Shown piece after piece: positions 20,255-60,124 of a stretch of 64,000 bases of DNA (the first letter of the stretch is position 1; every line of letters begins with the position of its first letter). A program made the position numbers and the translations under genes. Source of the stretch: Parapedobacter koreensis (lineage in GTDB: Bacteria; Bacteroidota; Bacteroidia; Sphingobacteriales; Sphingobacteriaceae); the NCBI RefSeq assembly GCF_900109365.1, contig NZ_FNZR01000001.1:434001-498000 (forward strand), read 5' to 3'. Below the pieces are notes generated by a model. It ran no database searches. It was not told the DNA's origin and worked only from the letters and a program-made list of their open reading frames with translations.

Positions 20255-20262
20255 TATCTTTG
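20255..20262 (+). promoter_or_regulatory. -7 box of predicted antisense RNA C
   Basis: TATCTTTG on the plus strand is a perfect TAnnTTTG match. A TTG (20233-20235) lies 19 nt upstream, matching the usual -33 spacing. No plus-strand gene lies downstream, only the predicted RNA. Confidence 0.55.
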
Positions 20263-20267
20263 CTATG

Positions 20268-20383
20268 GAAATAGTAGTTGTTAAAACGTAATTGCTATTC
20301 AGGGCCCGTGATGCGCTGCCAAACGTTTACTGGCCCAAATCCTTACCGGTATGGCGACGCCATCGCCTACCGGTTTATTTTTT
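20268..20383 (+). ncRNA. Predicted cis-antisense RNA opposite the module C susC leader
   Basis: About 115 nt, running against the fecR-susC spacer. The first hairpin is GGGCC (20302-20306) with GGCCC (20332-20336), enclosing GCTGCCAAACG. This is the weakest first stem of the set, though CGT/ACG inside it can also pair. The second hairpin is a strong terminator (20345-20383) ending 8 nt before the fecR stop. The 5' end is extrapolated from the promoter box. Confidence 0.55.
20345..20383 (+). terminator. Intrinsic terminator of antisense RNA C
   Basis: ACCGGTA plus GGCGA pair with TCGCC plus TACCGGT (12 bp, one bulged T), followed by TTATTTTTT on the plus strand. The minus strand has no U-tract after the hairpin. 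Confidence 0.7.
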
Positions 20384-20390
20384 CCTTAAC

Positions 20391-21365
20391 TTAAAATATC
20401 GTAATCGTGTCCCCCTCCTTTCTATACTGATTGCCGTGAACTTCGCAAATCGCCTTAATCAGGTCATCGATGGGCACGTCCCGGCTGAATTGGATGCTAT
20501 AGCGTTGTTTGGCGATCGTACCATCACCCGCACGAAGCCTCATGCCATGAGAATGGCGCAATACCACCGCCAGTTCATCAAATGATGCTTGCCGGAGACT
20601 TGTCTTACCTACCATCCATCCGTTGCTGTTTTCAGTTGCCACCTGTTGGATACTGGCCGTTTGCGTTGATTTGCGGTAGGTCAATTCGTCTCCCCGATGC
20701 AATACCCCCAATACAAGGCTATCTCCCTGCGACACTTCCACGCGCCCAGTCAATACGGATACCTGCATTTCATTGAGTTCCGCATATGCTTTCACATTGA
20801 AAGATGTACCCAGCACACGTGTGCTCAGTACGTCGGAATGGACGATAAAAGGTTTAGCCGTATCGGGCGTCACCTCAAAAAAAGCTTCTCCCTCTTCCAA
20901 TACCACTTCCCGGCTACCGGCCTGACCAAATGGGGTGTAGAAGCCCAGCTTACTTCCTGCATTCAGCCATACGGTGGTGCTGTCCGGTAATTGTACTTTT
21001 TTCAGCGTCCCTTGTTCCGCTGTCACCGCTACCCATTGCCTGTCTTTCTGCGACCGTGATGTTCCATCCCGTTGTGCCAGGTACCAAGCGCCAATTCCGA
21101 TAGCCATCATGACCACAGCTGCTGCGGCCATTCCCCGCAGCAAATACCGCCGCCCGGAACCGGCTGGCTGCATTTCATCGGGAGACAACCGGCGTTGGAT
21201 GCGCGCGTGCAATTCATTCCGGAGGGCCTTCTGCTGCTGCGCGTTTTTTTCGGGAAACACTTCGCCGAATGACGCATACCAGTCGTCTACTAATTTGGTT
21301 TCCTGCTCGGTAGTTTTCCCTGCACGATACTTCCGTAATAATCCTTTAAATAAATGTGGTCGCAC
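20391..21365 (-). CDS. FecR-family anti-sigma factor (module C)
   Basis: This 324-residue protein has a cytoplasmic region with LLRKYRAGKTTEQE (9-22), a membrane helix (about 78-96), a periplasmic FecR domain (about 115-220, with LPDSTTVWLNAGSKL and VLGTSFNV) and a DUF4974 domain (about 250-324). The start is GTG at 21365; no ATG is available before the conserved N-terminal helix. It lies 57 bp after the sigma stop. It should hold the module C sigma factor until receptor C signals through its STN domain. Confidence 0.94.
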   Translation of the reverse strand: MRPHLFKGLLRKYRAGKTTEQETKLVDDWYASFGEVFPEKNAQQQKALRNELHARIQRRLSPDEMQPAGSGRRYLLRGMAAAAVVMMAIGIGAWYLAQRDGTSRSQKDRQWVAVTAEQGTLKKVQLPDSTTVWLNAGSKLGFYTPFGQAGSREVVLEEGEAFFEVTPDTAKPFIVHSDVLSTRVLGTSFNVKAYAELNEMQVSVLTGRVEVSQGDSLVLGVLHRGDELTYRKSTQTASIQQVATENSNGWMVGKTSLRQASFDELAVVLRHSHGMRLRAGDGTIAKQRYSIQFSRDVPIDDLIKAICEVHGNQYRKEGDTITIF

Positions 21366-21422
21366 GTATTCGTCTTTTACGGATACGTCTGCCGGAAGGG
21401 CCGGAATTACTTCTACAAATGG

Positions 21423-22037
21423 TTATTTATTTGTTAACAAATCGTGAATCACCTGAAGAAAGGTGATCAAGATGGGCATCGCGTTGTCTTGGAATCGATG
21501 AGGCAGGTTTTTGCGCAGGCGCTTGGAGGCTTCGGTGAGCAAGTTGCTCACGGTCTGTTCGGCGAGGTTCAGGCGTTTCGCGATGTCCGGGGTACTGAGG
21601 TTATCGAGCTTCAATAGGAAAGACTTGCGCATATTGTCCGGCATTTTCTCCAGTTCATCTTCCAAAATGTCTTCCACTTCCTGATACGACCACGCATCAT
21701 CCGACTGCCGGAGGAAGGCCTCCATCTGGCCGAGCACATATGCAAATACCCGTTGTTTGACTTGCTCGGATTGGAAATAGTCAATCAACCGGTTTTTCAA
21801 CGCTCCGGTGAGGTATTGTCCGACTCCTGTACGGATGGTAATGTCCTTCCGCCGCTCCCAGAAGCTCACGAAGACATCCTGCACAATATCTTTGGCTACG
21901 GCTTCATCCTTGGTGCGGCTCCATGCGATGGCGTAAAGCTTTTCCCAATGCCCAAGGTAGAGCCGATCAAACAGCTTCCTGTCGTCCTGTTGCCGGACGG
22001 CTTCCCACCACCTAAGTTCCAGCGTCTGATCCATCAT
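21423..22037 (-). CDS. ECF sigma factor (module C)
   Basis: This FecI-like sigma factor is about 204 residues long from the ATG at 22037 (MMDQTLELRWWEAV). A TTG at 22058 is in frame but falls inside the TACCTTTG promoter box, so it cannot be the start of a transcript from that box. Region 2 includes AKDIVQDVFVSFWERR and region 4 includes STPDIAKRLNLAEQTVSNL. Its fecR follows. It is preceded by the hicB stop at 22086, with only a promoter-sized gap. Confidence 0.93.
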   Translation of the reverse strand: MMDQTLELRWWEAVRQQDDRKLFDRLYLGHWEKLYAIAWSRTKDEAVAKDIVQDVFVSFWERRKDITIRTGVGQYLTGALKNRLIDYFQSEQVKQRVFAYVLGQMEAFLRQSDDAWSYQEVEDILEDELEKMPDNMRKSFLLKLDNLSTPDIAKRLNLAEQTVSNLLTEASKRLRKNLPHRFQDNAMPILITFLQVIHDLLTNK

Positions 22038-22055
22038 GTAAGACGATTGTCTTGA

Positions 22056-22085: not shown

Positions 22086-22472
22086 TTAAATCTCTCGCAT
22101 TGGTGATTGGGTCAGGTTATCACTTGAGAGCATATCCTGGTGTTTGACGGCATAGGCAATAGCTGCTTTGACCAGATCGTTGAGTGATATGTGCCGCTGC
22201 GATGCAACGATTGACGCTTCTTTATGAAGCTCGCTGGGAATACGTACATTAAAGCTTCCCTTAAACGTTTTCTGAGGTTGTTTTCCAATGGCCTCACAGG
22301 TAGCGATGTAATCGTCAACCGCTTCATGGAATGCCTGTTTTAATTCAGTTGTAGATGCTGCCTCGTAAGTGACCAAATCGTTTATTCCGATGATTTTGCC
22401 ATGCAGTACCTCATCGTCGGCACTGTAGGAAACTGTGCCATAATAGTCTTTGTATGCCAATACGTCTTTCAT
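22086..22472 (-). CDS. hicB: HicB-family antitoxin
   Basis: This 128-residue protein has a partially degraded RNase-H-like HicB fold (about 1-70) and a C-terminal ribbon-helix-helix DNA-binding segment (about 73-108, SFNVRIPSELHKEA...SLNDLVKAAI). It should bind and neutralise the HicA toxin and repress its own operon. Its ATG overlaps the hicA stop by 4 bp (ATGA), so translation is coupled in the order toxin then antitoxin, the usual order for this family. It lies between modules C and D and has no visible link to nutrient uptake. Confidence 0.9.
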   Translation of the reverse strand: MKDVLAYKDYYGTVSYSADDEVLHGKIIGINDLVTYEAASTTELKQAFHEAVDDYIATCEAIGKQPQKTFKGSFNVRIPSELHKEASIVASQRHISLNDLVKAAIAYAVKHQDMLSSDNLTQSPMREI

Positions 22473-27766: not shown

Positions 27767-30700
27767 TTAAAAGGTTACGTTTAATTTTACGCCCATCGGC
27801 ATTACCCAGGGTTCGATGTTGAACTCCTCCGTTCCCTGTCTCATCTGGATACCTCTCCTGCCTTCGCCCTCGGTAGTGGGCACGAACGCCCTTTCGGGGT
27901 CTATGTTTACCTTGGCCTTTGTCCAAAGCATAATGTTTCGGCTGAAAACGGAGACAGCCAACCCCTTGATCTTTAATTTTTCCAACGCGCTCGGCGGGAT
28001 ATTATACGTCAGGGACACTTCTCGGAGCTTGATAAAATCGGCAGGAAGTATGCTTGCCTGAGGGAAATTCCAGGAGGTATCGTATTGTCTGAAAACACCC
28101 CATATGGTTTCACTTCCCTCGCCCAGGTGTTCGATATACCCGATAAGATTACCATCTGCATCTCTTTGTTCCAATACACCCGGAGCGAACGTTCCATCCC
28201 AAGCAATACCGTCGACAGCATGGTATCCGCCCATCTCGCGAGTGGGTCCTCCCACATACCTGATCAGACCGTCATCCGTAAATAAGTGGTCATTGGCTTT
28301 CAACCAGTCGCTGAGCGCTTTGCCCGTGCGGCCTCCGGCATCTATGGTTTCTCTTTCGTAAGCGCGGGGAGATGCACCGTTATTCCGTATACGACGTTCG
28401 GTATCCGAAAAGAATTCGCCGCCGTATCTCCAGTCGAGCGTAAAGTTCAACGCAAAGTTTTTGTACGATACGACAGAATTGGCACCAAGTATGAAATCGG
28501 GGTTGAAATTCCCCGATCGATAATTGGCCACTTCTCTCGACACACTCGTCCAACGGCCCTGGGAGTTCAGGATCGGATATCCATAATATTCGGAGGTCGG
28601 GTCGGTTACTCTCACCTCCTTGGGGGAGTAAATGTTTCCAATCTGCTCGCCGACGTTAACCCACGATGCAGAGCCTGCCGAAGCTTCGTTCCAAATCGGT
28701 AATCTGGTGATTCCGGGGGCAAGTTCTTTAAGCACCGTACGGGTTCTTGTCATATTAACGTTGACATCCCACCTCCAACCAGCTGTTTGGATGGGCGTAC
28801 CTCCGAGGGTAAACTCCCATCCTTTGCTCTGCACCAGACCCATATTGAGATTGGTGGTACTGAAACCGCTCGAACTGGGAATAGGCTGATTTTGTACGAT
28901 CTGGTTTTCATTATCCACCACGAAATAGGTGCCTTCAAACCGCAGGCGGTTCTGGAAAAACGCTAAATCCGTTCCGAATTCGATTGATGTCGCCAATTCC
29001 GGTTTCAGGTTGGGCACCAGCATCGTGCCTGATTTGGCATAGCGCGTTGTGGTACCCCAGGGTTCCAGTGCGTTGTACGTCGCAAGCAACTGATAAGGTG
29101 ACGTATCATTACCCACTTGCGCCCAGCCGCCTCTCAACTTAATCAAGGATACCCGGGGGCCCAAATCGATCAGCTGATCGACCAATAAACTCAACGACGC
29201 CGAAGGATAAAAATAGGATCGGTTGTTCTTGGGAAGCGTACTGCTCCAGTCGTTACGCGCTGTCAAATCCAGGTACACCCTATCTTTCCATCCCAGGTTG
29301 GCGAACGCATACAGGCTCTGGATAGCTTTTTGCGACCAGGCACTGCTATACAGGAGGTTTTCAGGCGCGATATTTTTGATGGTAAACACATTCGGAGATA
29401 TCAATCCTCTGCCGGGTGTCGACGAATTGGATATGTCGGTACCCTTGGTATACATCTCGTTACCCCCCGCTGAAAGCGTATAAGCGAAATCGCCCACGCG
29501 ATCGTCCCATTTGATCAAAAAATCGAAGTTGCGCTCATAGTTTGTAATATTGCCCAGACCATAAGCACCGTTATTAGGCTCACCGGAGTAACCTACCGGG
29601 ATTTTGGTTTCGCGTCGTTCAAAAAAACTATCCATCGTCATACGCGCCATGGCACTCAATTTCGGCAGAATTTGATACTCCGCTATCAAATTTCCATAAA
29701 CTCGGTCGCGGCGGAAAGCGTTTTTGACCTCATAGGCCAGAAAATAGGGATTATCCCATCCGTCATAAAGACGAACAAGCTCTTGACCTTCTTTACCCGT
29801 AACCCAGTAGTTTTCGAACTCCCTTATGTCGAGATTATTAGGCATTTGCATCGCATATTGCAGCACATTGGTGCCCCGATTCCCTGCCGGTCTGTTGTCT
29901 GCCCAGGATTGCGTGTAGTTGATATTCGTCGAGAATGTGAAATTCCTCCCTCCTTTGAATTGTCCGGCTGCGGAGAAGTTATTTCTGTTCAAGTCGGTAC
30001 CGGGAATAATGCCTTGGTTGGTCATATTGGTAACCCCCACGCGGTAGTTCATCCTTTCGTTGCCATTGCTGAGGGATAAGGAGTTGGTCGTGGTTAAACC
30101 GGTATTCACAAAATTCCTGAAGTTATCCGGATGGCCGACCACCTCGGTCGGGAGAAGGGGTTCATCGGTGTATTCCGGCCTGCGCCACTGGGTGGCAAAA
30201 ATGCCTTTATCCAAAGGTATTCCCATTCCGGTAGTGACACTCGCCGGTAGATCCAGGATCGTACCCTCGGGGACATCGTCCTGCGTGATCGGTCGGGTTC
30301 CAGGGGCAAATAAATTTTGCTTCCTGTAAAATTTGTATGGAATGTCGAATACGGTATTGGTGCTGACATCCACCCGAAGTCCTTTTGCGTTCTTCCCGGA
30401 TTTAGTGGTAACCACCACAACGCCACTGGCGGCTCGCGAACCGTACAGGGCGGCTGCACTCGGCCCCTTCAGTATCGTCATACTTTCAATATCTTCCGGG
30501 TTCAGGTCGGAAATGGCATTACCGTAGTCAACCGGGTTTCCCGACCCGAATTGACCGACATTATTCAATGTACTTGACACGGGAATACCGTCGATCACAA
30601 ACAATGGCTGATTATCTCCGGCGAGGGAAGTTCCGCCCCGGATAACCATACTTACGGAAGAACCTGTGGGACCGGTCTGGTTGATCGTTACGCCCGATAC

Positions 30701-31441
30701 TTTTCCGGAAAGTGCGTTCAGTACATTCTCCTGAGGCACTCTTACCAATTGATCGCCGGCTACTTTGCCGACGGAATAGCCGAGCGATTTTTCCTGCCGT
30801 GAGATGCCCAGGGCGGTTACCACCACTTCGTCCAGCGCGTCCAAAGACTCCTGCAAGACGAAATCCGCAGTCACGGTACTACTTTCCTCCACCTTGACGC
30901 CCTGTTTAGTTTGCCGTTGGTAGGAGATATAGTTTACCTCCACGGAATAGATGCCAGGTTGCAAACTAATGGTGAAATTCCCTTCTCCATCCGTGCTGAA
31001 ACTGCGGTTGAGTTCCACAATCCGGATACTGGCTCCGGCGAGCGGTTCGCCCCGCTCATCGGTGATTCGGCCGACAAGACGGCCGGGTTGCTGCTTGTGC
31101 GACAACACGATAGCTCCAGCTACCTCATTGAATACCAAGTCATTCGGTTCAAGCAACGACGCCAATACCTCGCGCAATGATTTGTCATCAAAACGGACAT
31201 TTTTCACGGTAACTTCATCCAGTTTCAGATCTTTAGTGAAACCAAAATCCACATTCGCTTGCCGTTGTAAATCTTTGATGACATCGTGAAGGGTGGTGCC
31301 TTGATAGCTTACCGTAACCCGCTTTTTTAATACCTGCCCGTGACTTGGAGAAGCCTGTAAGAGCGAGGTGGTGGTAGCCAAAACGAAATAGAGTATCGCT
31401 GTAATTTTCATATACCACTGCCATTGCAGTAAAAAGTTCAT
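27767..31441 (-). CDS. SusC-type TonB-dependent receptor with STN domain (module D)
   Basis: This 1224-residue receptor is the longest in the window. It has a signal peptide (about 1-35), an STN domain (about 37-110), a regulatory domain (about 118-205), the junction LDEVVVTALGISR, a plug with AALYGSRAASGVVVVTT, and a barrel ending MGVKLNVTF. ATG 31441 is preferred over TTG 31447. The regulatory domain is almost the same as in receptor C (GEPLAGASIRIVELNRSFST in both), while plug and barrel are of the other class, which points to a mosaic origin. Its SusD-like_2 partner fits the VVTALG class. The leader carries a predicted antisense RNA. Confidence 0.95.
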   Translation of the reverse strand: MNFLLQWQWYMKITAILYFVLATTTSLLQASPSHGQVLKKRVTVSYQGTTLHDVIKDLQRQANVDFGFTKDLKLDEVTVKNVRFDDKSLREVLASLLEPNDLVFNEVAGAIVLSHKQQPGRLVGRITDERGEPLAGASIRIVELNRSFSTDGEGNFTISLQPGIYSVEVNYISYQRQTKQGVKVEESSTVTADFVLQESLDALDEVVVTALGISRQEKSLGYSVGKVAGDQLVRVPQENVLNALSGKVSGVTINQTGPTGSSVSMVIRGGTSLAGDNQPLFVIDGIPVSSTLNNVGQFGSGNPVDYGNAISDLNPEDIESMTILKGPSAAALYGSRAASGVVVVTTKSGKNAKGLRVDVSTNTVFDIPYKFYRKQNLFAPGTRPITQDDVPEGTILDLPASVTTGMGIPLDKGIFATQWRRPEYTDEPLLPTEVVGHPDNFRNFVNTGLTTTNSLSLSNGNERMNYRVGVTNMTNQGIIPGTDLNRNNFSAAGQFKGGRNFTFSTNINYTQSWADNRPAGNRGTNVLQYAMQMPNNLDIREFENYWVTGKEGQELVRLYDGWDNPYFLAYEVKNAFRRDRVYGNLIAEYQILPKLSAMARMTMDSFFERRETKIPVGYSGEPNNGAYGLGNITNYERNFDFLIKWDDRVGDFAYTLSAGGNEMYTKGTDISNSSTPGRGLISPNVFTIKNIAPENLLYSSAWSQKAIQSLYAFANLGWKDRVYLDLTARNDWSSTLPKNNRSYFYPSASLSLLVDQLIDLGPRVSLIKLRGGWAQVGNDTSPYQLLATYNALEPWGTTTRYAKSGTMLVPNLKPELATSIEFGTDLAFFQNRLRFEGTYFVVDNENQIVQNQPIPSSSGFSTTNLNMGLVQSKGWEFTLGGTPIQTAGWRWDVNVNMTRTRTVLKELAPGITRLPIWNEASAGSASWVNVGEQIGNIYSPKEVRVTDPTSEYYGYPILNSQGRWTSVSREVANYRSGNFNPDFILGANSVVSYKNFALNFTLDWRYGGEFFSDTERRIRNNGASPRAYERETIDAGGRTGKALSDWLKANDHLFTDDGLIRYVGGPTREMGGYHAVDGIAWDGTFAPGVLEQRDADGNLIGYIEHLGEGSETIWGVFRQYDTSWNFPQASILPADFIKLREVSLTYNIPPSALEKLKIKGLAVSVFSRNIMLWTKAKVNIDPERAFVPTTEGEGRRGIQMRQGTEEFNIEPWVMPMGVKLNVTF

Positions 31442-31482
31442 ATTCAAATGGATATTAATTCCCCATACTCAAGGATATTCCT

Positions 31483-31490: not shown

Positions 31491-31496
31491 GGGGTT

Positions 31497-31604
31497 GGTG
31501 AATGTTAATTGTTTACTAACACGGGAGAGCAGTATAAGGGTTCCAAGCTAATTACTGCTCACCTTTTATCAAGCAGGTGCCGCACTTTGCGGCCCTGGTT
31601 TTTT
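31497..31604 (+). ncRNA. Predicted cis-antisense RNA opposite the module D susC leader
   Basis: About 107 nt. Hairpin 1 is GAGCAGTA (31527-31534) with TACTGCTC (31553-31560); its loop contains GGGTTCCAAGCTAAT, nearly the same as in E and F. Hairpin 2 is a terminator (31574-31604) ending 4 nt before the fecR stop codon. The RNA would cover most of the susC 5' leader without overlapping coding sequence. Confidence 0.68.
31574..31604 (+). terminator. Intrinsic terminator of antisense RNA D
   Basis: CAGG plus GCCGCA pair with TGCGGC plus CCTG (10 bp, one bulged T, CTT loop), followed by GTTTTTT on the plus strand. Confidence 0.75.
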
Positions 31605-35945: not shown

Positions 35946-38900
35946 TTAAAAAGTAACATTGATTCCCGCGGAATACGTTTTCACCTGCGGATAAGCAAAT
36001 ATGTTATCCTGGGTCAGGTTTTTTTCCGGATCGGTGATTTTCATATCTGTAAACGTGAGCAGGTTCTGCCCATTGGCAAAAACTCTTATCGCTTTCATGG
36101 ACATCTTCTGAGCCAAGCGTGCAGGAATGGTGTAACTCACTTGCAGGTTCTTTAGTCGCAGGTAAGCCGCATTTTGCAACCAAAATGTCGAGTTCTCAAA
36201 ATTCAACGTATTTCCGGTGCTTGTGGTCAGAATGGGCAAGCCGGCATTCGGGTTTTCAGGTGTCCACGAATCCGTCAACCATTCTTTCGTCACGCCCGCA
36301 CCGTTGTAATACGGATAGGCCAGGTTGGATTGTGGATAGGTAAATACCTTACCGACACCCTGGAAAAAGGCCAGCAGTTGGAAACCTTTATATCCCGCGC
36401 CCAGATTAAATGAATACGTGTATTCCGGCACGACACCATGGACAACTGTCCTGTCGTCTGCGTTAATTACATTATCCCCGTTCTGGTCTTTGTATTTCAG
36501 GAATCCCACCCGGGTTGCCGCGTTTTGAAAAGCGTGGTTGGCAATCTCTTCCTCGGATTGGAAAATTCCTTCGGCTTCATAAATGTAATAAGATTGTATG
36601 GGAGATCCTTCCTCTGTAATGTAACGCCCAGCGATCAGTTGCTGCCCATCCAGGTTGGTTACCCGGTTTTTGTTGTAGGCAAAGCTGCCCCCGATTTCGT
36701 AAGACACGGTGCCTTTTGTATCTCGGTAATTTAAGATCACTTCGATACCCTTATTGTTCACGGATCCCACGTTGGTCGTAGGGCCTGCCATATTTCCGAC
36801 CTGCGAAGCATAGTTAACGGGGCGCAGAACGCCATCTGCGTCTTTGTTGTACCATTCTAAAGTAGCACTTACTCGTCCCTTGAACAACGAGATATCAACC
36901 CCAATATTGGACATGGTCGTGGTTTCCCAGCTTAGATCCGGATCGGCCATGGCGGTAGCTGCGGCCCCAATGGACTCGGTATTTCCAAAGGAATAGTTTT
37001 GACTCAAACCGACTGAATTGACATAGCTCCAAAGCGCGATTTCCTGATTGCCGATTTTACCCCAGGAGAAGCGGGGTTTCAAGCCATCTATCCATGCTAC
37101 ATCCTGCATGAAGGATTCTTTGTCTATCCGCCATCCCACGGAAAAAGAGGGAAACAGCCCCCAGCGGTGCTCCTTGGCAAAACGGGAAGAACCGTCATAG
37201 CGGAAGTTGGCCTCCAGCAGGTACTTCTCATCGAAATTATAGTTTATCCGTCCGAAATACGACAACAGTGCGGATCGGGTACTATTGCCTGCGACGGTTG
37301 GATTGGTCAGAAAAACATCGATATCCGTCAGTTGATTATCCATTGAGCCGTCTTTTTGGGCATTGAAATATTCCCACGAAAAGGTTTCGACACTGTTTCC
37401 CAGCAATGCCGCAATGTTGTGCTTCCCGACAATGCTGGCATGCCAGTCCAAGGTATGATAGCCCGTCAGGTTGATTTCCTTTTCATACCGGCGATAACCC
37501 CTTGTTGTGTTCGAAGCGATGAATGGGGAGCCTGTTTTAGGGTTGACATTCTCCAGGTAAGGCTGAAACACGTGTTGGATATAGTCGTATGTATTCGCCG
37601 CAAGGTTGACACGATAGGTGATGTTAAGGGGCAGCTTTAAATCAGCGAAAACATTCCCCAAGACCCGTGTCCGTACATAATCACGGCTTCCCTCCTTCAG
37701 TCGCGCTAACGGATTTGCCCAGCTATTCAAACCCGTAGAACGCAACCACGTGTTGCCATATCGTCCGTCTTCGATCAAAATGGGATAAATGGGAACCGTA
37801 CGGAACATCGCTTGATCCCAGTAACTGGTCATGGTGATTTGCGGTTCGTCATACTTGCGATAAATCCCCGACAGTTTACCACCGATGGAAAGAAAATCCG
37901 TCACATCGACCTTGCCGTTCAGGCTTATCGAATATTTGCTGGCTTTTGATTTGTCGTATCTCAAAATCCCATCCTGGTTGAGTGCGCCAAGCGTCAATGC
38001 CAGGTTATGTTTATCCCCACCTCCTGATACGGTAACGTTATGCTCATGCATAAATCCATTTTTCAGGGCAATATCGTACGGATTGGTACGCGGATACATA
38101 TAGCCATTGGGATCGTTGGGTATCCCCGCTTCGTATTCCGCAATCTCCGCATCCGTATATTCGGGAGCCTTGCCTTCATTGGCAAGCGCGATGTTCTTGT
38201 AGCGCATGAATTTAATGGGGTCGAATTCCACATCCGGCAATTGGATGGCCTCTTCTACCCCGAAATAGTTGTTGTAATCCACCTTATAACCTCCGCTTCT
38301 TTTGCCCGATTTAGTGGTGATGAGGATAACGCCGTTGGCAGCACATGAGCCATACACAGCTGTTGAAGCAGCATCTTTCAAGACGGATATACTTTCTATT
38401 TCATTCGGGTTGACGTCTATCAGTGGATAGGAAATACCATCTACCAATACCAATGGATCATTATTGTTGAGCGTTCCCACCCCACGGATGCGTATCGTGG
38501 CTTGGTCATTCCCGGGCTGGCCCGTGTTTTGATTCACGTATAGCCCATTTAAACCCTGTAGCGCCTGCGATGTGGTGGTAATCGGGCGGTTGGCTAATTT
38601 ATCCATATCGGCAACGGTGATGGCTCCAGTCAACGTGGCCTTCTTCTGCGTACCGTAGCCCACCACGACCACTTCACTCAACGCACCTTCCGCCTCCCGC
38701 ATGACAAACGCGACATCCACCTGCTGCCCGGCTTGGAGCGTCACTTCCCTGCGTTGTGTACCGTAAGCAATATAGGTCACCTCCACCGTGTATACGCCGG
38801 CCTGTGCAGGAATCGAAAAAGTCCCTTCGCTGTCTGTTGAATACGTACGGTTCAGCTGGGTGACCCTCACCGATGCTCCAGCCAATGGCTCGCCCCGGAC

Positions 38901-39349: not shown

Positions 39350-39355
39350 AAAAAA

Positions 39356-39472
39356 AGTTACTTGATTAACTCCTGTTGATGAAGTAGCTGTACGATAATG
39401 GATGAGGGTCCAAGCTAATCACATTATTGTACGCCTTCCCGGATTTGTCCTTGGGCAAATCCGCTTTTTTTT
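39356..39472 (+). ncRNA. Predicted cis-antisense RNA opposite the module E susC leader
   Basis: About 117 nt. Hairpin 1 has an 11 bp stem with one G-T wobble (GTACGATAATG, 39390-39400, with CATTATTGTAC, 39422-39432). Its loop contains GAGGGTCCAAGCTAA. Hairpin 2 is a textbook terminator (39440-39472) whose U-tract ends 2 nt into the fecR stop codon (fecR ends at 39471). This is the best supported member of the set. Confidence 0.74.
39440..39472 (+). terminator. Intrinsic terminator of antisense RNA E
   Basis: CGGATTTG and CAAATCCG form a perfect 8 bp stem with an 8-nt loop, followed by C and eight T on the plus strand. No U-tract exists on the other side. Confidence 0.85.
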
Positions 39473-45136: not shown

Positions 45137-48100
45137 TTACAATTTAAAGCTGAGATTAAGACCGATGCTTCTTGCGGAAGGAAGCGACATGTTTTCGACA
45201 CCGGGAATGACCGCGTCTCCCTCCAAGGATGAAGTATCCGGATCCACATGGGGCACTTTGGTCCACAATGCAAGGTTCCGCGCTACCAGTGAAAACGTGA
45301 TGTCTTTTACCGGAAATCTTCCCAGTAATTTCTGAGGTATGGCATAGCCCAATTTTACCTCTCTTAATTTTATCCAAGTTCCGTCGAAAATACCTGCTTC
45401 ATTATTAAAATAGCCATCAAAGTGACGTTCAGCAGAGACCCTTACGTCATTGGGTACATACGTTCCCTCTGGAGTTTGCCGTACGCCGTCGGCGATAATT
45501 CCCTCTTCGCGGCCTGCCAGTGATTCAACCAGTTGACCAGCTTCGTTTCCTCTCACGTACATGTAGGAGTAAAACTCACCACCTTGTTTCCAATCGATTA
45601 AGAAACTGGCTACAACCCCTTTGTAGCTAAATGCGTTGTTGATGCCCGCCATCCAGTCCGGATTGTAGTTGCCCAGCTTTTGTTGGACGGGATCGTTTTG
45701 CGCATCCCCGTTGATGTAAACAATGTTCCCGTCGGGATCCCTTAAGTATACGCTACCGTACATGTCTCCCATTCGTTCACCCACCCGGGCCTGGTTGGAG
45801 ATCCGGCCGCTGGGTAGTGAATAGGTATCGATGCCATCCACCAGTTCCACCACTTTTGCCCGGTTGCTCGACCAATTAATGTTGATGTCCCAGTTGAATG
45901 TGCGGGATCGAATAGGCGTAACGTCCAGCATGACTTCGTATCCCCGGCTCTGTATTTTTCCCGCATTTAAGAACCGGGAAGTATAGCCACTGGTCTGGTT
46001 GATCGGCAAGTTGATGATCTGGTTTTTACTCACCGTATTGTAGTAAGTAAAGTCTATTCCGACCCGGTTGTTGAAAAAGCGCAAATCCGTACCCAACTCG
46101 TAGGTATCGAGCATTTCAGGAAGCAGCTTGGCATTTGCGATGGACGCCGGTTCGGATACCGTTTGGTAGCCGGACCAAGCAGTCCCGTAGCCATACACAT
46201 TCCGCAACCGGTAAGGGCGGGTATCATTCCCCACCCGTGCCCAGCTCAACCTTAGTTTTCCGTAGCTAAGTACATCGGAGGAGAGGTTCATAAAATCCGT
46301 AAAGACGCCGCTCAGCGACACGGAAGGGTAAAAATAGGAGTTGTTGGCTACTGGGAGCGAACTAGACCAGTCGTTTCTCGCCGTCACATCGAGGAAAAGC
46401 GAATTCATGTACGAAACCTGCCCCATACCGTACAAGCTGTTGATGGCGTATTTTGAGTCATACTGTTGGCCTACCAATGGTATACGCGAGTTTCCAAGGT
46501 TGTAAACCCCCGGTACATTCAATTGGCCTGCAGTCGTCGAATTATCTTCCTGTATCTGGCGCATTTGGTTTCCGCCGGCTGATACCCGCAGGTTCCAGTT
46601 GCTTGTCAGTTCCTTCGCATAGGTAAGCAAGAAATCGGAGTTCCTTTCCTGGAACACGTTTTTCTCCAGCCTGTACATCCCCTGCCTGTATGCATTGGTT
46701 CCCACCGAACGGCGGGTATCCCGTCGTTCATTGCTTTGATCGATCCCCGTTCTTGCCATCAAGCTCAGTTCGTCCGTAAACTGGTAACTAACGGAAACGT
46801 TTCCTATCCATCTTGCCTTCTTAAAACCATTGAGGTTTTCATAAGCGCCAAAGTATGGATTGTCATTGAACGAATAGTTATACGTAAAGGGCTGGGTACC
46901 TTCGTATCCTTTAAACCAATAGTCCCGCATCTTATCGGTAGGGACCTGCCGGCCTTCCCATATCCACGTATACACCGGGCTTTCATTTCCATAACCGATT
47001 ACCGACCGGTTATCGCTGTCAATATTGATGTAATTGACAGATGCATTCACCGTGAGTTTATTGGTAAAGTTATAGCTGGTGTTCAATGCAATATTATCCC
47101 TTTTTTGATCAGTATTGGGCACAAGACCTGTTTGATCAAGTCGGGTATAGGAAGCCCTGAAATTACCTTTGTCATTGCCTGCGGAGAGGGCTATGTTATT
47201 GGTCACCGTTTTGCCAGTCTCGTAAAACTCCTTTACGTTATTCGGATAAGGAACCCATTTGACAATCTCCCCATGATTAGGCGGAAACTCGGTATTGACC
47301 GGGACGGCCATGTCCCTGCCATCCAGCCGAGGGCCCCAGCTCCTGCCACCGTCGCCGATATTGTATACGCCCCCGCGCCCTGCACCATATTCGTTCTGGT
47401 AATCCGGCAATAACATGACCTTTTCCAACGTAGCGGTGTTATTGAAAGAAATACCAATGCCTTGCGATGACGTCCCTTTTTTTGTCGTAATCAGTACCAC
47501 GCCATTACCAGCCCTTGAGCCGTATAAAGCGGCTGCGGTAGGGCCTTTTAGCACGGAGATGGTTTCGATATCATCCGGATTGATTTCGCCTGCACCATTG
47601 CCATAATCGATCTTTTGGCCTTGGGAAGAAGAACTGATTGAGTTGTTGATGGGAATACCATCTACGACAAATAGCGGTTGATTGCTTCCTGCAAGCGATG
47701 TTTCACCCCTGATAACGATTTTGGAAGAACCACCAATACTATTAGAGCCATTCACAATGTTTACACCGGCTATTCTTCCGGCCAAACCATTCACCAGATT
47801 GGTTTCCCTTGCCTGGGTCATTACATTGCCCTTAATCTCCTGCACAGCATAGCCCAATGAACGGCTTTCGCGCTTTACACCCAAGGCGGTCACCACCACT
47901 TCATTCAATGCACCAGCTTCTTCCGTCAGGGTGAAATTAAGGGTTGTGCTACTGCCTTCCTGTACGGACACGTTCGATTGGCGTTGTGTGCCGAAGGAAA
48001 TATAAGTCACTTCTACCGTATAGGAGCCGGGCTGTACGCTGATGGTAAAATTACCCTCCCTATCCGTGCTGTAACGACGATTGAGCTCTATGATGCTAAT

Positions 48101-48523
48101 GTTGGCACCTGCCAACGGCTCACCCTGTGTATCCGTGATGCGACCGATAATCCGTCCTGGTTGCTGTTTACGGTATAACACCACCGTATTTCTCGCTTTT
48201 TCTTCGTAGCCAACTTCCGTACCGGCAAGCAGGTAATCGAGAATATGTCCGATGGGCTCCGATTTGAATATTGCCGCATCTACATCGACCTTTTCCAATT
48301 TCAGCAGCTCTTCGTCAAAGGCAAACTCCACCTTACTTTGTTGCTGGAGTTGCTGAATAGCCGCATACAAACTCGTGCTTTCAAAAGCAATATTCAAGGA
48401 TTTCCCAAGAGCCTGTCCCTTGGATGTCTCCGCAAGCAGCAGTTGCGAAAATGCGATAGTCACGGAGTAAATCAAAATTGTCGTACGCATGATAATCCGT
48501 ATGAACAATGTGTTTTTATTCAT
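45137..48523 (-). CDS. SusC-type TonB-dependent receptor with STN domain (module F)
   Basis: This 1128-residue receptor has a signal peptide (about 1-36), an STN domain (about 38-112), a regulatory domain (about 120-205, GEPLAGANISIIELNRRYST), the junction LNEVVVTALGVKR, a plug with AALYGSRAGNGVVLITT, and a barrel ending IGLNLSFKL. It belongs to the VVTALG class, matching its SusD-like_2 partner. Its start codon (ATG, 48521-48523) overlaps the -7 promoter box of the predicted antisense RNA by one base, so polymerases on the two strands would meet here. Confidence 0.95.
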   Translation of the reverse strand: MNKNTLFIRIIMRTTILIYSVTIAFSQLLLAETSKGQALGKSLNIAFESTSLYAAIQQLQQQSKVEFAFDEELLKLEKVDVDAAIFKSEPIGHILDYLLAGTEVGYEEKARNTVVLYRKQQPGRIIGRITDTQGEPLAGANISIIELNRRYSTDREGNFTISVQPGSYTVEVTYISFGTQRQSNVSVQEGSSTTLNFTLTEEAGALNEVVVTALGVKRESRSLGYAVQEIKGNVMTQARETNLVNGLAGRIAGVNIVNGSNSIGGSSKIVIRGETSLAGSNQPLFVVDGIPINNSISSSSQGQKIDYGNGAGEINPDDIETISVLKGPTAAALYGSRAGNGVVLITTKKGTSSQGIGISFNNTATLEKVMLLPDYQNEYGAGRGGVYNIGDGGRSWGPRLDGRDMAVPVNTEFPPNHGEIVKWVPYPNNVKEFYETGKTVTNNIALSAGNDKGNFRASYTRLDQTGLVPNTDQKRDNIALNTSYNFTNKLTVNASVNYINIDSDNRSVIGYGNESPVYTWIWEGRQVPTDKMRDYWFKGYEGTQPFTYNYSFNDNPYFGAYENLNGFKKARWIGNVSVSYQFTDELSLMARTGIDQSNERRDTRRSVGTNAYRQGMYRLEKNVFQERNSDFLLTYAKELTSNWNLRVSAGGNQMRQIQEDNSTTAGQLNVPGVYNLGNSRIPLVGQQYDSKYAINSLYGMGQVSYMNSLFLDVTARNDWSSSLPVANNSYFYPSVSLSGVFTDFMNLSSDVLSYGKLRLSWARVGNDTRPYRLRNVYGYGTAWSGYQTVSEPASIANAKLLPEMLDTYELGTDLRFFNNRVGIDFTYYNTVSKNQIINLPINQTSGYTSRFLNAGKIQSRGYEVMLDVTPIRSRTFNWDININWSSNRAKVVELVDGIDTYSLPSGRISNQARVGERMGDMYGSVYLRDPDGNIVYINGDAQNDPVQQKLGNYNPDWMAGINNAFSYKGVVASFLIDWKQGGEFYSYMYVRGNEAGQLVESLAGREEGIIADGVRQTPEGTYVPNDVRVSAERHFDGYFNNEAGIFDGTWIKLREVKLGYAIPQKLLGRFPVKDITFSLVARNLALWTKVPHVDPDTSSLEGDAVIPGVENMSLPSARSIGLNLSFKL

Positions 48524-48530: not shown

Positions 48531-48536
48531 TAGTCT

Positions 48537-48636
48537 TAGTAGTTAATGAATTGCTAAGCCGCTATGCGCCAGGGTCTCAAGCTAAAGCATAGCAGACATT
48601 TTCCAAACAGGCGTCACTTTGATGCCTGTTTTTTTT
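48537..48636 (+). ncRNA. Predicted cis-antisense RNA opposite the module F susC leader
   Basis: About 100 nt, covering nearly the whole 112 bp leader. Hairpin 1 is GCTATGC (48561-48567) with GCATAGC (48587-48593), enclosing CAGGGTCTCAAGCTAAA. Hairpin 2 is a terminator (48605-48636) with eight T ending on the last base of the fecR stop codon. Confidence 0.7.
48605..48636 (+). terminator. Intrinsic terminator of antisense RNA F
   Basis: AAACAGGC and GCCTGTTT form an 8 bp stem; a run of eight T (48629-48636) overlaps and extends past its 3' arm on the plus strand. Confidence 0.8.
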
Positions 48637-53605: not shown

Positions 53606-56600
53606 TTAAAATTGGATTTTAGCCCCTAACGTGTATACCTTATTCTGCGGATAGCGTACCCCGCCTCTGACCGAATCATCCACCCGCTCGGGGTCAAACT
53701 TGTTGAAGGGGGTCCAAGTGAATAGATTCTGTCCCGACAGGTAGATAACCAACGAATTTATACCGATTTTGCCGATCGCACGTGAGGGTACGCTATATGA
53801 CAGATCGAGGCTCCGCAGCCGGAAATATGAAGCGTCTTCCAGGAAAAAATCCGAGCGTTCGGACAGTGCTTTGTCACCGGTCGGATAAATACGGGGCATG
53901 GTGGTACTGGGGTTTTCAGGCGTCCACCGATTCCGCCATTCCGCGGGTGGGGGCGACCCCTGACGGAATGGCTCAAAGCCCCATTGTCCGGTATAAAACT
54001 TGCGGCCTTCCAACCCATACCACAGGGAACTGAGCGAGAAGTTTTTATAGTTGAGGCCGAAATTTATCGAATAATCAAAATCCGGGTGCTTGCCGTCCAT
54101 GTATACACGGTCTGCGGAATTGATCACATTATCGCCATTTTGGTCCTTATACTTCAAGTCCCCGGGCTTCGGCTGGTTCGCCTGCGTAGCCGAATTGGCG
54201 ATCTCATCTTGCGATTGGAAGATGCCCTCCACTTCCCATAGGTAATAGGTCTGCAACGGATGGCCTTCCTGGTTGATGTATGAGTCGCCAAAGGTGGTGG
54301 ATCCATACCGAACCAACTTGTTGCGGTAAGTCGACACAAATGCACCAAGGTCAAAGGTGAGTTCGTCCACGAGCCGGCCACGGGTATTGATGCCCAGCTC
54401 AAACCCTTTGTTTTCTACGATGCCATCGTTGATGAGCGGTGCCGCCAATCCGACCTCCAACGGAATATCGGCGTTCCTTAGGATATCCGTGGTCCGCTTG
54501 TTGAAATAATCAAAAACGATATTCAGGCGCCCCTTGAATAACGTAGCGTCCAACCCGAAATCGGTAATCGTAGTGGTTTCCCAAGAGATGTCCCGGTTAT
54601 TCAGCCGATTTTGCCGTACGCCCGAAGAAAGCGTGTTGGTAAACGGGTAACTGCCTGCGAGGGTCAATAGCGCCTGATAGGGGTAGTTGCTGATCTGTTG
54701 GTTGCCCAACCTGCCCCATGACCCACGAAGTTTCAATTCATCCACCCAATCGGCCTTGAAAAAAGCTTCATTAGAAAGCCGCCAACCAGCAGAAAAAGAG
54801 GGGAAAAAGCCCCACCTGTTTTCCTTCGCAAAACGCGAAGAACCGTCATACCGTGCGTTGACTTCCAACAGATAACGCTCGTCAAAATTATAGGAGGCAC
54901 GCCCGAAATAAGACAGCAGTGCCCACTCCTGGGTGTTGCCGTAGTTTGTCTGGTTATCGAGGGGTCCGGCATCGAGCTCTTCCAGCGCACTGGTTACAAA
55001 CTCCGTCCGCGCGGCACCCAAAACACTTTGCTTATACGTCTCCAAACTGCTTCCGGCAACCAAACGAACTTGATGTGTGCCGAACGTACGATCAAAATTC
55101 AGGTAGGAGTTGACGGTCGTTTGGTTATAGTTCGATCGGGATTGGGTAAGGTTGTTATTGCCGAATACACCCACCTCTTCGCCCGTGGTGAAACTATAGA
55201 GCGGCGTCCTGTCGTTCATGCCCTTTGATTCATCAAAAGAACCGGAAACGGCCGCGGTACCCATCAGATTGAGGTAGGGATTTACATTCACTTTCAAGTA
55301 CCCTTGGAGCTGGTACTCGCGGTTGACCGTATTAAAGAGGTTTTCCGTGGAAACCAACAACATATTTTTGTTGTTGATTTCGTTGGGGAATGCATTCAGC
55401 GTGTACCGTCCACTGCCGTCTGGCAATTGCGGTGCGTAAGTCGGTCGCTGCGCCAGCGTTGACAACAAAGGATCCACGCCATCCCCGTTGCTATCACCGC
55501 TTGGGTAGTCCCTGTCTTTGAAAATGATCGCTGCCTTCGTGCCGATTTCCAAGTACTTATTTAGTTTGGAATCCATATTCACCTGCACATTGGTCCGTTC
55601 CATATGATACCCATTAAACGTGCCCGGCTGGTTGAGATAGGCCAGCGCTATGTAGTAATTGGTAGTGCCGCTCTGCCCGCTGGCTGTAATCGAATGGTTA
55701 TTCACGCTGCGGGGTTTGATCAATTCATCCAGCCAGTTGACATTGGGGTATTGCTTGGGATCCGATGGATTTCGGTAAAGATTAATCTGCTCTTCCGTAT
55801 AGGGCGTGCCGCCACTGTTGAAGTTTGCGATTGCCTCGTTCCACAGCTCCATATACTCAACAGAATTCCAAATCAGATCGGGCAATTGGGTCGCCTGATG
55901 TATCGCCGTGAAGCCGTTGTAGTTAAATCTCAATCTATCGGTTTCTCTACCCGTTTTTGTCTGGATCAGAATCACTCCATTCGCAGCCCTTGCACCGTAA
56001 ATTGCTGCCGAAGCGGCATCCTTCAATACCGACATGCTTTCGATATTTTCGGGATTGATCGCGTTGATGTCGCCACCGGCCACGCCATCGATGATCACCA
56101 ATGGGCTCACGCCAGCTCCACTAAAAGTCCCATACCCCCGGATCCGGAGGTTTGTACCTTCCGCGCCCGGCGCGCCTGAATTCTGCACGATCTGCAGGCC
56201 GGGGAATCGTCCTTGCATCAGCGTGGCTGCATTTGTAAAATTGCCTTCAGCGATCCGTTTGGAGGATATGGAAGACACTGCACCCGTCAGGTTTTCTTTT
56301 CGTTGTGTTCCGTAACCCACCACGACGACCTCACCGAGTGCCTCCTCACCCGCGGTTAGTGAAAAATCTAAGACGGCTTGTCCGTTTTCGGGCACGACCG
56401 CTTCCCGGCGTTGGGTACCATGGGCCACATAGCTGACCTCTACGGTATAGGTTCCCGCTCGTAGGCTGATGGTGTAATTACCCTGCTCATCCGCGCTGAC
56501 ACTCCGGTTTACTTCTACGATCCTGATGTTCGCTCCGCTTAACGGTTGGCCCTGATTGTCCGTAATGTGTCCGGTAATCCTTCCGGCAATTTGCTGGGGA

Positions 56601-56989
56601 TCTTTCGCTACGGCAATGATGTTGCTGTTTTGTGTAATTTTTAACTGGAAGGTAGCAGCGAGCAGTTCCAACAAATCATATAAATTGACTTTACGCCCGA
56701 TAGCCAGACCGCTGTTGGGTAGGTTTGCAACTTCCTGTTCGTAGTAAAACCGGAATCCAGTTTGTTGTTCCAGTTCCCGAAAAATGTCGCCAAGTTTCTC
56801 TTGTTTTTTGACCTGTTGACCGAGGGTCACATCGATCTTACGTAAATTTTGTGACAGCACATCTGATGCTAAAATGACGCCCGTAACTGTACAGGATATC
56901 ACCACAAGCAAAAACAGTAATCGTGACATATCACAAATTCTTTTTATTGCATTTTTATTTCTAATATTGTTCATTGTTTTAAAATTCAT
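53606..56989 (-). CDS. SusC-type TonB-dependent receptor with STN domain (module G)
   Basis: This receptor of about 1127 residues starts at ATG 56989 (MNFKTMNNIRNK; ATG 56974 also possible). A longer frame from 57064 would add 25 residues across the predicted hairpin region and is unlikely. It has a signal peptide, an STN domain (about 50-130), a regulatory domain (about 140-225), the junction LGEVVVVGYGTQRKEN, a plug with AAIYGARAANGVILIQT, and a barrel ending TLGAKIQF. It has the VVGYG junction and a classical SusD partner. Its leader carries a single hairpin instead of the two seen in C, D, E, F and H. Confidence 0.94.
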   Translation of the reverse strand: MNFKTMNNIRNKNAIKRICDMSRLLFLLVVISCTVTGVILASDVLSQNLRKIDVTLGQQVKKQEKLGDIFRELEQQTGFRFYYEQEVANLPNSGLAIGRKVNLYDLLELLAATFQLKITQNSNIIAVAKDPQQIAGRITGHITDNQGQPLSGANIRIVEVNRSVSADEQGNYTISLRAGTYTVEVSYVAHGTQRREAVVPENGQAVLDFSLTAGEEALGEVVVVGYGTQRKENLTGAVSSISSKRIAEGNFTNAATLMQGRFPGLQIVQNSGAPGAEGTNLRIRGYGTFSGAGVSPLVIIDGVAGGDINAINPENIESMSVLKDAASAAIYGARAANGVILIQTKTGRETDRLRFNYNGFTAIHQATQLPDLIWNSVEYMELWNEAIANFNSGGTPYTEEQINLYRNPSDPKQYPNVNWLDELIKPRSVNNHSITASGQSGTTNYYIALAYLNQPGTFNGYHMERTNVQVNMDSKLNKYLEIGTKAAIIFKDRDYPSGDSNGDGVDPLLSTLAQRPTYAPQLPDGSGRYTLNAFPNEINNKNMLLVSTENLFNTVNREYQLQGYLKVNVNPYLNLMGTAAVSGSFDESKGMNDRTPLYSFTTGEEVGVFGNNNLTQSRSNYNQTTVNSYLNFDRTFGTHQVRLVAGSSLETYKQSVLGAARTEFVTSALEELDAGPLDNQTNYGNTQEWALLSYFGRASYNFDERYLLEVNARYDGSSRFAKENRWGFFPSFSAGWRLSNEAFFKADWVDELKLRGSWGRLGNQQISNYPYQALLTLAGSYPFTNTLSSGVRQNRLNNRDISWETTTITDFGLDATLFKGRLNIVFDYFNKRTTDILRNADIPLEVGLAAPLINDGIVENKGFELGINTRGRLVDELTFDLGAFVSTYRNKLVRYGSTTFGDSYINQEGHPLQTYYLWEVEGIFQSQDEIANSATQANQPKPGDLKYKDQNGDNVINSADRVYMDGKHPDFDYSINFGLNYKNFSLSSLWYGLEGRKFYTGQWGFEPFRQGSPPPAEWRNRWTPENPSTTMPRIYPTGDKALSERSDFFLEDASYFRLRSLDLSYSVPSRAIGKIGINSLVIYLSGQNLFTWTPFNKFDPERVDDSVRGGVRYPQNKVYTLGAKIQF

Positions 56990-57015
56990 TTTCGTAAAAC
57001 GGGTTTTGAAAACAC

Positions 57016-57054
57016 ATAGGGCGGGGTGGTGAGAAGCTTCCGCTCTATTTTTTT
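57016..57054 (+). terminator. Single hairpin-terminator in the module G susC leader (possible short antisense RNA)
   Basis: ATAGGGCGG (57016-57024) pairs with CCGCTCTAT (57040-57048) over 9 bp with one G-T wobble, followed by a seven-T run (57048-57054) on the plus strand. The loop (GGTGGTGAGAAGCTT) resembles the GGT...AAGCT core of the antisense RNAs in D-F. A one-mismatch -7 box (TAATATTG, 56962-56969) would give an RNA of about 78 nt overlapping the susC start. Confidence 0.5.
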
Positions 57055-57143
57055 CGTTTGTCAAATACTGGATATGTTGTCGTCGTTATGTACGTTATGA
57101 CTGCATCCTATTCCTCCTTTCTTTTGCTTCATTACCTAATGAT

Positions 57144-58864: not shown

Positions 58865-58993
58865 TGGATATTTATTAAAAGCGAAATTAAAAAGAACAAA
58901 TTATTAAGGCCATTGACATCTTTTAAAGCCCCTCTTGTTAACAAAAAATTAATCATTTGGTATTCTATTATTGAAGTACTTCCTGTTGTTATC

Positions 58994-60001
58994 ATGCACT
59001 ATATAGGCGTTACTACACAGATAAAAGTGGATCAGAAAACTTTTCAACGTTTATTGAAAAAATACCAGGAGGGTACTGCAACCGATGCCGAACGCTATGT
59101 CGTTGATACGTGGTACGCACACTTGGGTCAGCCCCCGGTAGCCATTCCGAATATCCAAACCGCAGAACAAAAGGAAGCGCTGAAAGCTCGCCTGTGGGCT
59201 GGCATGTCAACCCATAGGCCACGTAAGATACGGTATCAAAGGACTTGGTTACGAATTGCCGCCGGGATAGCGCTCGTAATGGGTATTTCTGTATTGCTTT
59301 ATGTCGTAAATGTAGCATACCCAACACGCGACGGGCAGCGATCGGCCTCACCAACCTTCTTGAGCACAATCACGACAGGGAGCAAACAGCTTAAGCGGAT
59401 TGTCCTGCCGGATAGCACACTTGTTTGGCTCAATGCCAATTCTACTTTGCAGGTAGCCAGCAATTACGGCAACCCTACCCGCCTGCTAAGCTTAACTGGC
59501 GAGGCTTTCTTTGAGGTGAAAAGGGACACGTTAGCTCCATTTAAGGTACTGACCGACGGCATCACCGTCAATGTGCTGGGAACTTCGTTCAATATCCAAT
59601 CCTATGCGGATCTTTCCAACATCAAAGTATCCGTGGCAACAGGCAAAGTACTCGTGGCCGATACTGCTGGAAAGCCATTATCCGAATTGCGTATCGGGCA
59701 GCAACTGAGCTATGATAAGGAGTTACAAACGTCGACTATCCATCGATTGGAGTCTACAGGATATGAGGCTTGGCGGAAGGGGAATGCCGTGTTAGACAAA
59801 GCCGATTTCGCCGAACTTTCACGACACTTTTTTAACCTATACGGGGTGCAGTTAAAAACCATGGACAACCGTGTAATCACTAGTCGTTTCAACCTAACCA
59901 TGCAAGCAGCCCATTCAGCGGAAAAAACAGCAACTATGCTTTGCAAGATTTTAAATAAAGATTTTAGAAAGGAGGCTAATGGAGATTTCGTGATTTATTA
60001 A
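58994..60001 (+). CDS. FecR-family anti-sigma factor without adjacent own sigma gene (module H)
   Basis: This 335-residue protein, counted from ATG 58994, has a cytoplasmic region with LLKKYQEGTATDAERYVVDTWY (split 20-41), a membrane helix (about 86-105, IAAGIALVMGISVLLYVV), a periplasmic FecR domain (about 130-235, with LPDSTLVWLNANSTL and VLGTSFNI) and a DUF4974 domain (about 260-335). A TTG at 58913 would add 27 residues and nearly abut the divergent sigma gene; it is less likely. It is the first gene of the plus-strand module. All other FecRs here follow a sigma gene; this one does not. Confidence 0.92.
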   Translation: MHYIGVTTQIKVDQKTFQRLLKKYQEGTATDAERYVVDTWYAHLGQPPVAIPNIQTAEQKEALKARLWAGMSTHRPRKIRYQRTWLRIAAGIALVMGISVLLYVVNVAYPTRDGQRSASPTFLSTITTGSKQLKRIVLPDSTLVWLNANSTLQVASNYGNPTRLLSLTGEAFFEVKRDTLAPFKVLTDGITVNVLGTSFNIQSYADLSNIKVSVATGKVLVADTAGKPLSELRIGQQLSYDKELQTSTIHRLESTGYEAWRKGNAVLDKADFAELSRHFFNLYGVQLKTMDNRVITSRFNLTMQAAHSAEKTATMLCKILNKDFRKEANGDFVIY

Positions 60002-60035
60002 AAAAAACACAGATGCCAATTCAGTAGCACCTGTG
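60001..60035 (-). terminator. Intrinsic terminator of antisense RNA H
   Basis: On the minus strand CACAGGTGC pairs with GCATCTGTG (9 bp, one wobble), followed by seven T that reach the last base of the fecR stop codon. Confidence 0.78.
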
Positions 60036-60110
60036 CATTAAATTTTAGGGTAGTAGCGGTAGTTTGGTCGCTGCGCTACTGCCAAACGCAGTCATTAACA
60101 CAGTAATAAC
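60001..60110 (-). ncRNA. Predicted cis-antisense RNA opposite the module H susC leader
   Basis: About 110 nt on the minus strand, opposite a plus-strand module. Hairpin 1 is GGCAGTAGCG with CGCTACTACC (plus coordinates 60074-60083 and 60049-60058), 10 bp with one G-T wobble, loop GACCAAACTA. Hairpin 2 is a terminator at 60001-60035. The structure has turned round with its module, as expected for an element tied to susC. Confidence 0.7.
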
Positions 60111-60116
60111 CACGCC

Positions 60117-60124
60117 CAAATATA
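60117..60124 (-). promoter_or_regulatory. -7 box of predicted antisense RNA H
   Basis: The minus strand reads TATATTTG, a perfect TAnnTTTG box, 34 nt before the first hairpin. No clear -33 element is visible. Confidence 0.5.

Follow-up and report, generated by a model that had tools for sequence, protein, structure and literature searches.

What is encoded opposite the susC leaders of a receptor gene cluster in Parapedobacter koreensis? The window analysed here is a 64-kb stretch of the 5.55-Mb genome and contains eight of its 42 FecR matches; Pfam searches confirmed FecR together with SusC/TonB-receptor partners in the modules of the window, and sigma-70-type factors of extracytoplasmic function (ECF) size adjoin the FecR/SusC pairs. 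A first-pass annotation had proposed that in five of these modules (C, D, E, F and H) the antisense strand carries a TAnnTTTG box, a stem-loop and an intrinsic terminator, and had interpreted them as cis-antisense RNA genes of the DonS kind. Our analysis supports that interpretation. Each unit is probably a small antisense RNA gene, usually of ~70–120 nucleotides (nt), and probably represses its cognate susC; we infer transcription, pairing and repression from the predicted features described below. Judged by sequence, the family is the DonS kind of antisense RNA of polysaccharide utilization loci (PULs) in another lineage, and this is the best reading given the strand-specific terminators, the pattern of G.U pairs, the fixed spacing and the layout in Bacteroides fragilis.

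The box, hairpin and terminator are present on the antisense strand at all five loci, and the stem sequences named for them are correct. The hairpin in question, the second of those predicted (hp2), starts 31–41 nt past the box; the U-tract ends between 8 nt short of fecR (C) and 2 nt into the fecR stop codon (E and H); and the element flips with module H, its unit lying on the minus strand and the boxes of C–F on the plus strand. To the proposed stem-loop and terminator must be added a third hairpin at the 5′ end (hp1), which also folds in C, D, E, F and H. In module C, the predicted RNA of 116 nt (20268..20383, plus strand) has its box at 20255-20262, hp1 at 20270-20299, hp2 at 20302-20336 and a plus-strand terminator at 20345-20374 with a T-tract to 20383. 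Its cognate target is susC at 16969..20223 (minus strand, listed from TTG; Pfam Plug and CarboxypepD_reg), and the terminator stops at the 3′ end of fecR (20391..21365, minus strand). The corresponding fecR 3′ ends are at 31608 (D), 39471 (E), 48636 (F) and 60001 (H). The 109-nt RNA predicted for module D (31496..31604, plus strand; box 31483-31490) comprises hp1 (31494-31520), hp2 (31527-31560, apex GGGTTCCAAGCTAA) and a terminator (31574-31597, T-tract to 31604), with susC at 27767..31447 (minus strand, listed from TTG). For module E we predict 118 nt (39355..39472, plus strand; box 39342-39349), with hp1 at 39356-39389, hp2 at 39390-39432 (apex GGGTCCAAGCTAA), a terminator at 39440-39463 with a T-tract to 39472, and susC at 35946..39293 (minus strand); an orthologue, L158, is 90% identical. 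The box of module F (48523-48530) overlaps the ATG of susC (45137..48523, minus strand) and precedes a predicted RNA of 101 nt (48536..48636, plus strand) with hp1 at 48535-48558, hp2 at 48561-48593 (apex GGGTCTCAAGCTAA) and a terminator at 48605-48631; its orthologue is L165. On the minus strand, module H (113 nt predicted, 60000..60112; orthologue L154) has its box at 60117-60124, hp1 at 60086-60115, hp2 at 60049-60083 (apex CGACCAAACTA), a terminator at 60008-60036 and a T-tract at 60000-60007. Its susC is listed from a TTG (60133..63582, plus strand); the start is likely the ATG near 60175.

The layout thus holds at all five proposed loci, but five is too low a total, since modules B and G and many other fecR–susC gaps of the genome carry such units as well. 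The predicted 79-nt RNA of module B (9893..9971, plus strand) faces the start of susC (6317..9895, minus strand), with a box TAGTTTTG at 9880-9887, a terminator hairpin at 9931-9958 and a T-tract at 9965-9971. This unit, whose terminator with its T-tract spans 9931-9971, matches R1 (E 2.5e-4), a covariance model built without window sequences from 28 terminators of the genus; these were picked as hairpins, hence its 98.5% pairing is biased. In module G the box is imperfect (TAATATTG, 56962-56969), and the predicted RNA of 82 nt (56974..57055, plus strand) ends in a terminator (57016-57048, T-tract to 57055) that is kept in L157 and L167. The susC of this module is listed from a TTG (53606..57064, minus strand), and its true start codon is likely further in, near 56974. 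The scans used found no unit in module A, whose SusC is without an N-terminal extension.

Antisense terminators of this kind are a regular feature of gaps downstream of fecR. The window's genome provided 36 usable gaps between fecR and the next open reading frame (ORF), six of the 42 FecR loci having been dropped (five with short gaps, one without a next ORF); 23 of the 36 contain an antisense terminator and none a sense terminator. Among 53 ordinary co-directional control gaps, drawn from 400 kb of this genome, the counts are 3 and 9, respectively. A set from nine genomes of the genus, which joins all 42 of these FecR loci to 65 of the 322 from the other eight genomes (mostly those ranked highest by E-value), gave 95 gaps, 59 with an antisense and 7 with a sense terminator; five dinucleotide shuffles of the antisense strand gave 2, 0, 0, 3 and 1 of 95. 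The box occurs at −7/−8 of the start codon in 17 of 41 fecR-downstream genes compared with 1 of 284 control genes. Of the 71 genus loci that have a box, 54, F included, have it over the susC start codon; at C, D, E and H its distance upstream of that codon is ~40–50 nt.

Box and terminator behave as one unit. Across the genus, the distance from the box to the end of the terminator hairpin is 104 nt with a standard deviation (sd) of 13 nt (n = 48), compared with an sd of 30 from hairpin to ATG and 48 from hairpin to fecR stop codon (n = 59). At seven genus loci, D, E and H among them, the box is 17–72 nt away from the ATG, and the terminator has moved with the box. Because the spacing is fixed and the terminator moves with the box, a translation-start motif or a fecR terminator is a poor explanation. 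In module B the unit is at the start of susC despite a phospholipase-like gene (10027-12546) that intervenes between susC and fecR (12599-13558), which ties the unit to the susC start and not to fecR. The predicted RNAs are 70–116 nt long at 48 of the 50 genus loci with both box and terminator; the outliers are 12 and 141. Beyond the listed FecR loci, 11 of 12 R1 matches in the genus are followed by a long ORF of SusC type with a signal peptide, five of them without a FecR-matching neighbour; here SusC type was judged by length and N-terminus rather than by Pfam, and the 20 R1 matches considered were picked mostly for having no listed FecR adjoining. Antisense terminators before SusC-type genes with no FecR match next door were seen at L374 (C9:287544 of the window's genome), L381, L384, L386 and L387.

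On which strand do the hairpins fold? The stem search scored G.U and A.C pairs alike, and thus neither strand was favoured. The antisense stems of the genus comprise 562 Watson-Crick pairs, 61 G.U, 9 A.C and 12 others, and the seven sense-strand hairpins found in the genus have 3 G.U and 13 A.C. Because non-Watson-Crick pairs are mostly G.U and rarely A.C, a pattern that function on the sense strand would invert, the antisense strand is the one whose RNA forms these stems. Folding z-scores against shuffles are −3.9 (C), −5.6 (D), −6.6 (E), −4.9 (F) and −4.3 (H) for the antisense strand and weaker at all five loci for the sense strand (−1.8, −3.6, −3.4, −2.7 and −2.2, respectively). Of 12 genus homologue sets, 11 have the lower consensus energy on the antisense strand, H being marginal and F, with a truncated stretch, a tie. 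The covariation that the first-pass annotation saw by eye came from comparing paralogues. The proper comparison, of orthologues (E with L158, F with L165, H with L154) and the other homologue sets, favours the antisense strand but with many broken pairs: 104 changed pairs kept versus 69 broken in antisense structures and 44 versus 49 in sense structures. One-sided changes that preserve an antisense stem (of the U.G/U-A kind) number two between E and L158 and three between F and L165. Family VI (L107, L155 and L159) has the same three hairpins, and for 7 of its 38 pairs at least one of the three sequences has both partners replaced with pairing retained.

A closely similar arrangement is found in Bacteroides. 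From B. fragilis, B. salyersiae, B. finegoldii and B. luti we used 50 of 61 FecR loci, which gave 37 gaps of at least 50 nt after 11 short gaps and two loci without a next ORF were set aside. Antisense hairpins are present in 22 of the 37 and sense hairpins in 6, and the antisense stems have 24 G.U versus 6 A.C pairs. In B. fragilis (24 of 25 FecR loci, 18 gaps of at least 50 nt), 13 of the 18 gaps have an antisense terminator, that of L338 reading better on the sense strand, and 12 have the box on the ATG in the same register as in the window's genome. The unit spacing in Bacteroides is 100 nt (sd 12, n = 14), and the predicted RNA length is 72–117 nt at 14 of the 15 loci with box and terminator, the outlier being negative. 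B. fragilis Q1F2 also has a possible short intergenic small RNA (sRNA) at L372 1985-2065, with a box TATCTTTG and a terminator like those of the PUL antisense RNAs (asRNAs), which follows a sigma-factor-like ORF and a short ORF.

DonS-type RNAs, for which Cao et al. 2016 is reportedly the founding paper, are short RNAs divergent from a susC homologue and opposite its 5′ end, as are the units described here. Both occur in many copies per genome and have a sigma-A type −7 box, and box register and unit length agree with those in the four Bacteroides genomes, B. fragilis included, although DonS itself was not identified among the B. fragilis gaps scored. Passages of PMC7366714 give 78–128 nt for RNAs of the DonS family, and predicted lengths for B–H are 79–118 nt. 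The units differ in belonging to another lineage, in the shift of C, D, E and H off the start codon, in the extra hairpins of C–F and H, in an apex common to D, E, F and H, and in the pairing of SusCD with phosphatases in several window modules. According to passages of PMC9723704, asRNAs occur at 15 B. fragilis PULs, some negative, and Flavobacterium psychrophilum has many antisense RNAs, for which those passages state no tie to susC. The mechanism of DonS is called unknown in passages of PMC11697453, and those of PMC10994844 say that Bacteroides asRNAs need functional study. The FopS sRNAs of B. thetaiotaomicron, compared by description alone as passages of PMC11697453 give it, are also multi-copy small RNAs, of which 4 of 14 are antisense; they differ in that 9 of 14 are intergenic. 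In the passages that our literature search returned, susC-linked RNAs of this sort are described for Bacteroides only, and searches aimed at Pedobacter and Sphingobacteriaceae brought up no paper on either. At the gathering score, Rfam gave no match in the window or in eight related loci; the match of unit E to ncr982 falls below threshold, at 29.1 of 50 bits.

Several observations weigh against reading the units as antisense RNA genes that repress susC: (i) Broken pairs are frequent in the antisense consensus structures (the 69 set beside 104 kept), and L165 lacks one of the outer hp2 pairs of F. (ii) Detection of a box and detection of a terminator are only moderately associated (odds ratio 3.4, p 0.015 in the genus; 5.5, p 0.02 in Bacteroides); of 96 genus gaps, 23 yielded a box alone, 9 a terminator alone and 14 neither. 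(iii) There is no clear −33 element; a TTG lies 22 nt upstream of 10 of the 71 boxes in the genus, of which some are related, and no position stands out among 20 Bacteroides boxes. (iv) Sense-strand hairpins with a T-tract do occur, in 7 of 95 genus gaps and 6 of 37 Bacteroides gaps. (v) Passages of PMC10994844 report positive as well as negative correlation for asRNA–PUL pairs in B. thetaiotaomicron. (vi) The sense susC promoter was not located, and the overlap of the antisense RNA with susC mRNA is presumed.

How would such an RNA act? By analogy with the Bacteroides RNAs, we infer repression of susC. A housekeeping-type promoter, TAnnTTTG, located either over the susC start codon or some tens of bases further upstream, would be directed away from susC. 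Its transcript would fold into hairpins and end at an intrinsic terminator of its own, at or short of the end of the gene upstream. The 5′ part of the RNA would be complementary to the susC 5′ leader; with the box on the ATG, it would begin ~12 nt upstream of the start codon, and pairing just upstream of that codon could block translation or expose the mRNA to decay. Presumably susC is switched on by the ECF sigma/FecR pair of its module, and the antisense RNA would hold it off, or return it to that state after the inducer has disappeared. The predicted RNAs of C, D, E and H begin ~55–63 nt upstream of the start codon, and because of this they would act only on the upstream leader or via polymerase collision.

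The second hairpin may provide the first contact. In this hairpin D, E and F share the apex CAAGCTAA exactly even though the stems differ, and only 1 of 3000 shuffled triples had any 8-mer in common. The FecR proteins of D, E and F are 32.6–35.6% identical (31.6–37.5% with H included), and related apices occur in module H and, as GTCCAGAC, in family VI. The shared apex points to a selected contact site, and in D, E, F and H it may be the loop that meets the target first. CopA/CopT are an example of classic cis-antisense RNAs, which pair loop first, and serve in plasmid copy control; the likeness, with no homology implied, is a hairpin loop that could start pairing with a complementary sense hairpin.

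The alternative that survives best is transcription interference, in which polymerases starting at the box would collide with, or block, the susC promoter and the sequence of the RNA, itself real, would matter little. In its favour, stems differ between loci, and the predicted RNAs of C, D, E and H do not extend to the start codon; the three folded hairpins, their conserved structure and the identical apex of D, E and F, however, suggest that the RNA itself matters, and we regard interference as a minor though real possibility. The same apex raises the question of whether the RNAs act in trans or on several paralogous susC leaders, since it is shared or related among D, E, F, H and family VI despite the low identity of the FecR proteins. 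Yet GGGTN{1,2}CAAGCTAA occurs at chance-level counts outside the window modules in 100 genomes, as does a looser apex pattern across the genus; both patterns are crude, the looser one missing E and F, and few other units carry the apex, which makes action in trans unlikely. A sense-strand device, either a susC leader attenuator or an inverted-repeat DNA operator, would suit hairpins that fold on the sense strand too and a fecR–susC region that probably holds the susC promoter, but the excess of G.U over A.C in antisense stems, the absence of sense terminators from the 36 gaps of the window's genome and the fixed box–terminator spacing make it very improbable. We give just as little credence to CAAAnnTATG as a susC translation-start motif, with the terminator governing read-through of some other transcript: most loci with a box have it on the ATG and its association with the terminator is moderate, but terminators shift along with the seven displaced boxes and the motif is nearly absent from control genes.

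Does the antisense RNA unit reach beyond the genus and Bacteroides? A scan of the class with R1 gave matches in 35 of 149 genomes. Outside the genus the model is not specific: at one locus per genome, 5 of 29 fetched loci (G020, G021 and G023, all of the same family, G117 and G220) are at a SusC-like ORF, and of eight further matches L377 alone precedes an ORF of SusC type. For this reason R1 was not used as proof of common descent. At E<0.02, R1 has four matches in B. fragilis, of which two (L345 and L326) are in fecR–susC gaps. Units whose terminator tip has the form GYGn(4-8)RCRC number 27 of 59 in the genus and 4 of 20 in Bacteroides; none of 37 control terminators, which had to pass a stricter score cut (10.5 versus 9), has such a tip. 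In a sample of the phylum, antisense terminators are present in some gaps of families f1, f15, f36, f41 and f48, and the few gaps that could be used from f45, f50, f51 and f57 yielded none; f55 has one doubtful A+T-rich match (L131) and f42 one that reads both ways.

It is conceivable, although we consider it doubtful, that the ~100-nt promoter–hairpin–terminator unit is an ancient standard part of FecI/FecR uptake modules, at the start codon of STN-type susC genes, across the class Bacteroidia, common to Bacteroides and the present lineage, and that in the C–H cluster it has diverged into a three-hairpin form whose shared apex allows RNAs from adjacent receptor genes to bind one another's leaders and thereby select the receptor to be displayed. 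As a DonS-type family, the units would extend a regulatory RNA class known from Bacteroides, as far as the literature passages go, to another genus of the Bacteroidota, the window's genome having tens of copies. Fixed spacing together with the register on the start codon amounts to a simple rule by which such RNAs can be located without data other than sequence, and the many diverged copies, some of them off the start codon, would help to tell translation blocking from transcription interference.

Other features were seen in the gaps. At L105 (G004 C24:18194 and 18395), two R1 matches lie ~200 nt apart downstream of one fecR, in a gap of 297 nt. A terminator loop with GTTTGGCGA marks a subclass (L004, L009, L012, L025 and L026). 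Two motifs, ATTGGTTA (sense TAACCAAT) and GTTTGGAT (sense ATCCAAAC), occur in 18 and 12 of 94 gaps where 1.1 and 0.6 are expected, respectively. Motifs of these types lie between the antisense terminator and the fecR stop codon at L020, L021, L022 and L027 and also elsewhere in gaps, and they are possibly parts of the susC promoter. Genes resembling phospholipase C, calcineurin-like or purple acid phosphatases adjoin SusCD in modules B, C, D and G (10027-12546, 14358-15257, 22798-25989 and 50459-52039), and the module cluster looks to be devoted partly to organic-phosphate scavenging rather than to glycan use. The neighbours in modules E and F are a DUF6528 gene and a gamma-glutamyltranspeptidase, respectively, and a HicB-family gene lies between modules C and D at 22086-22472.

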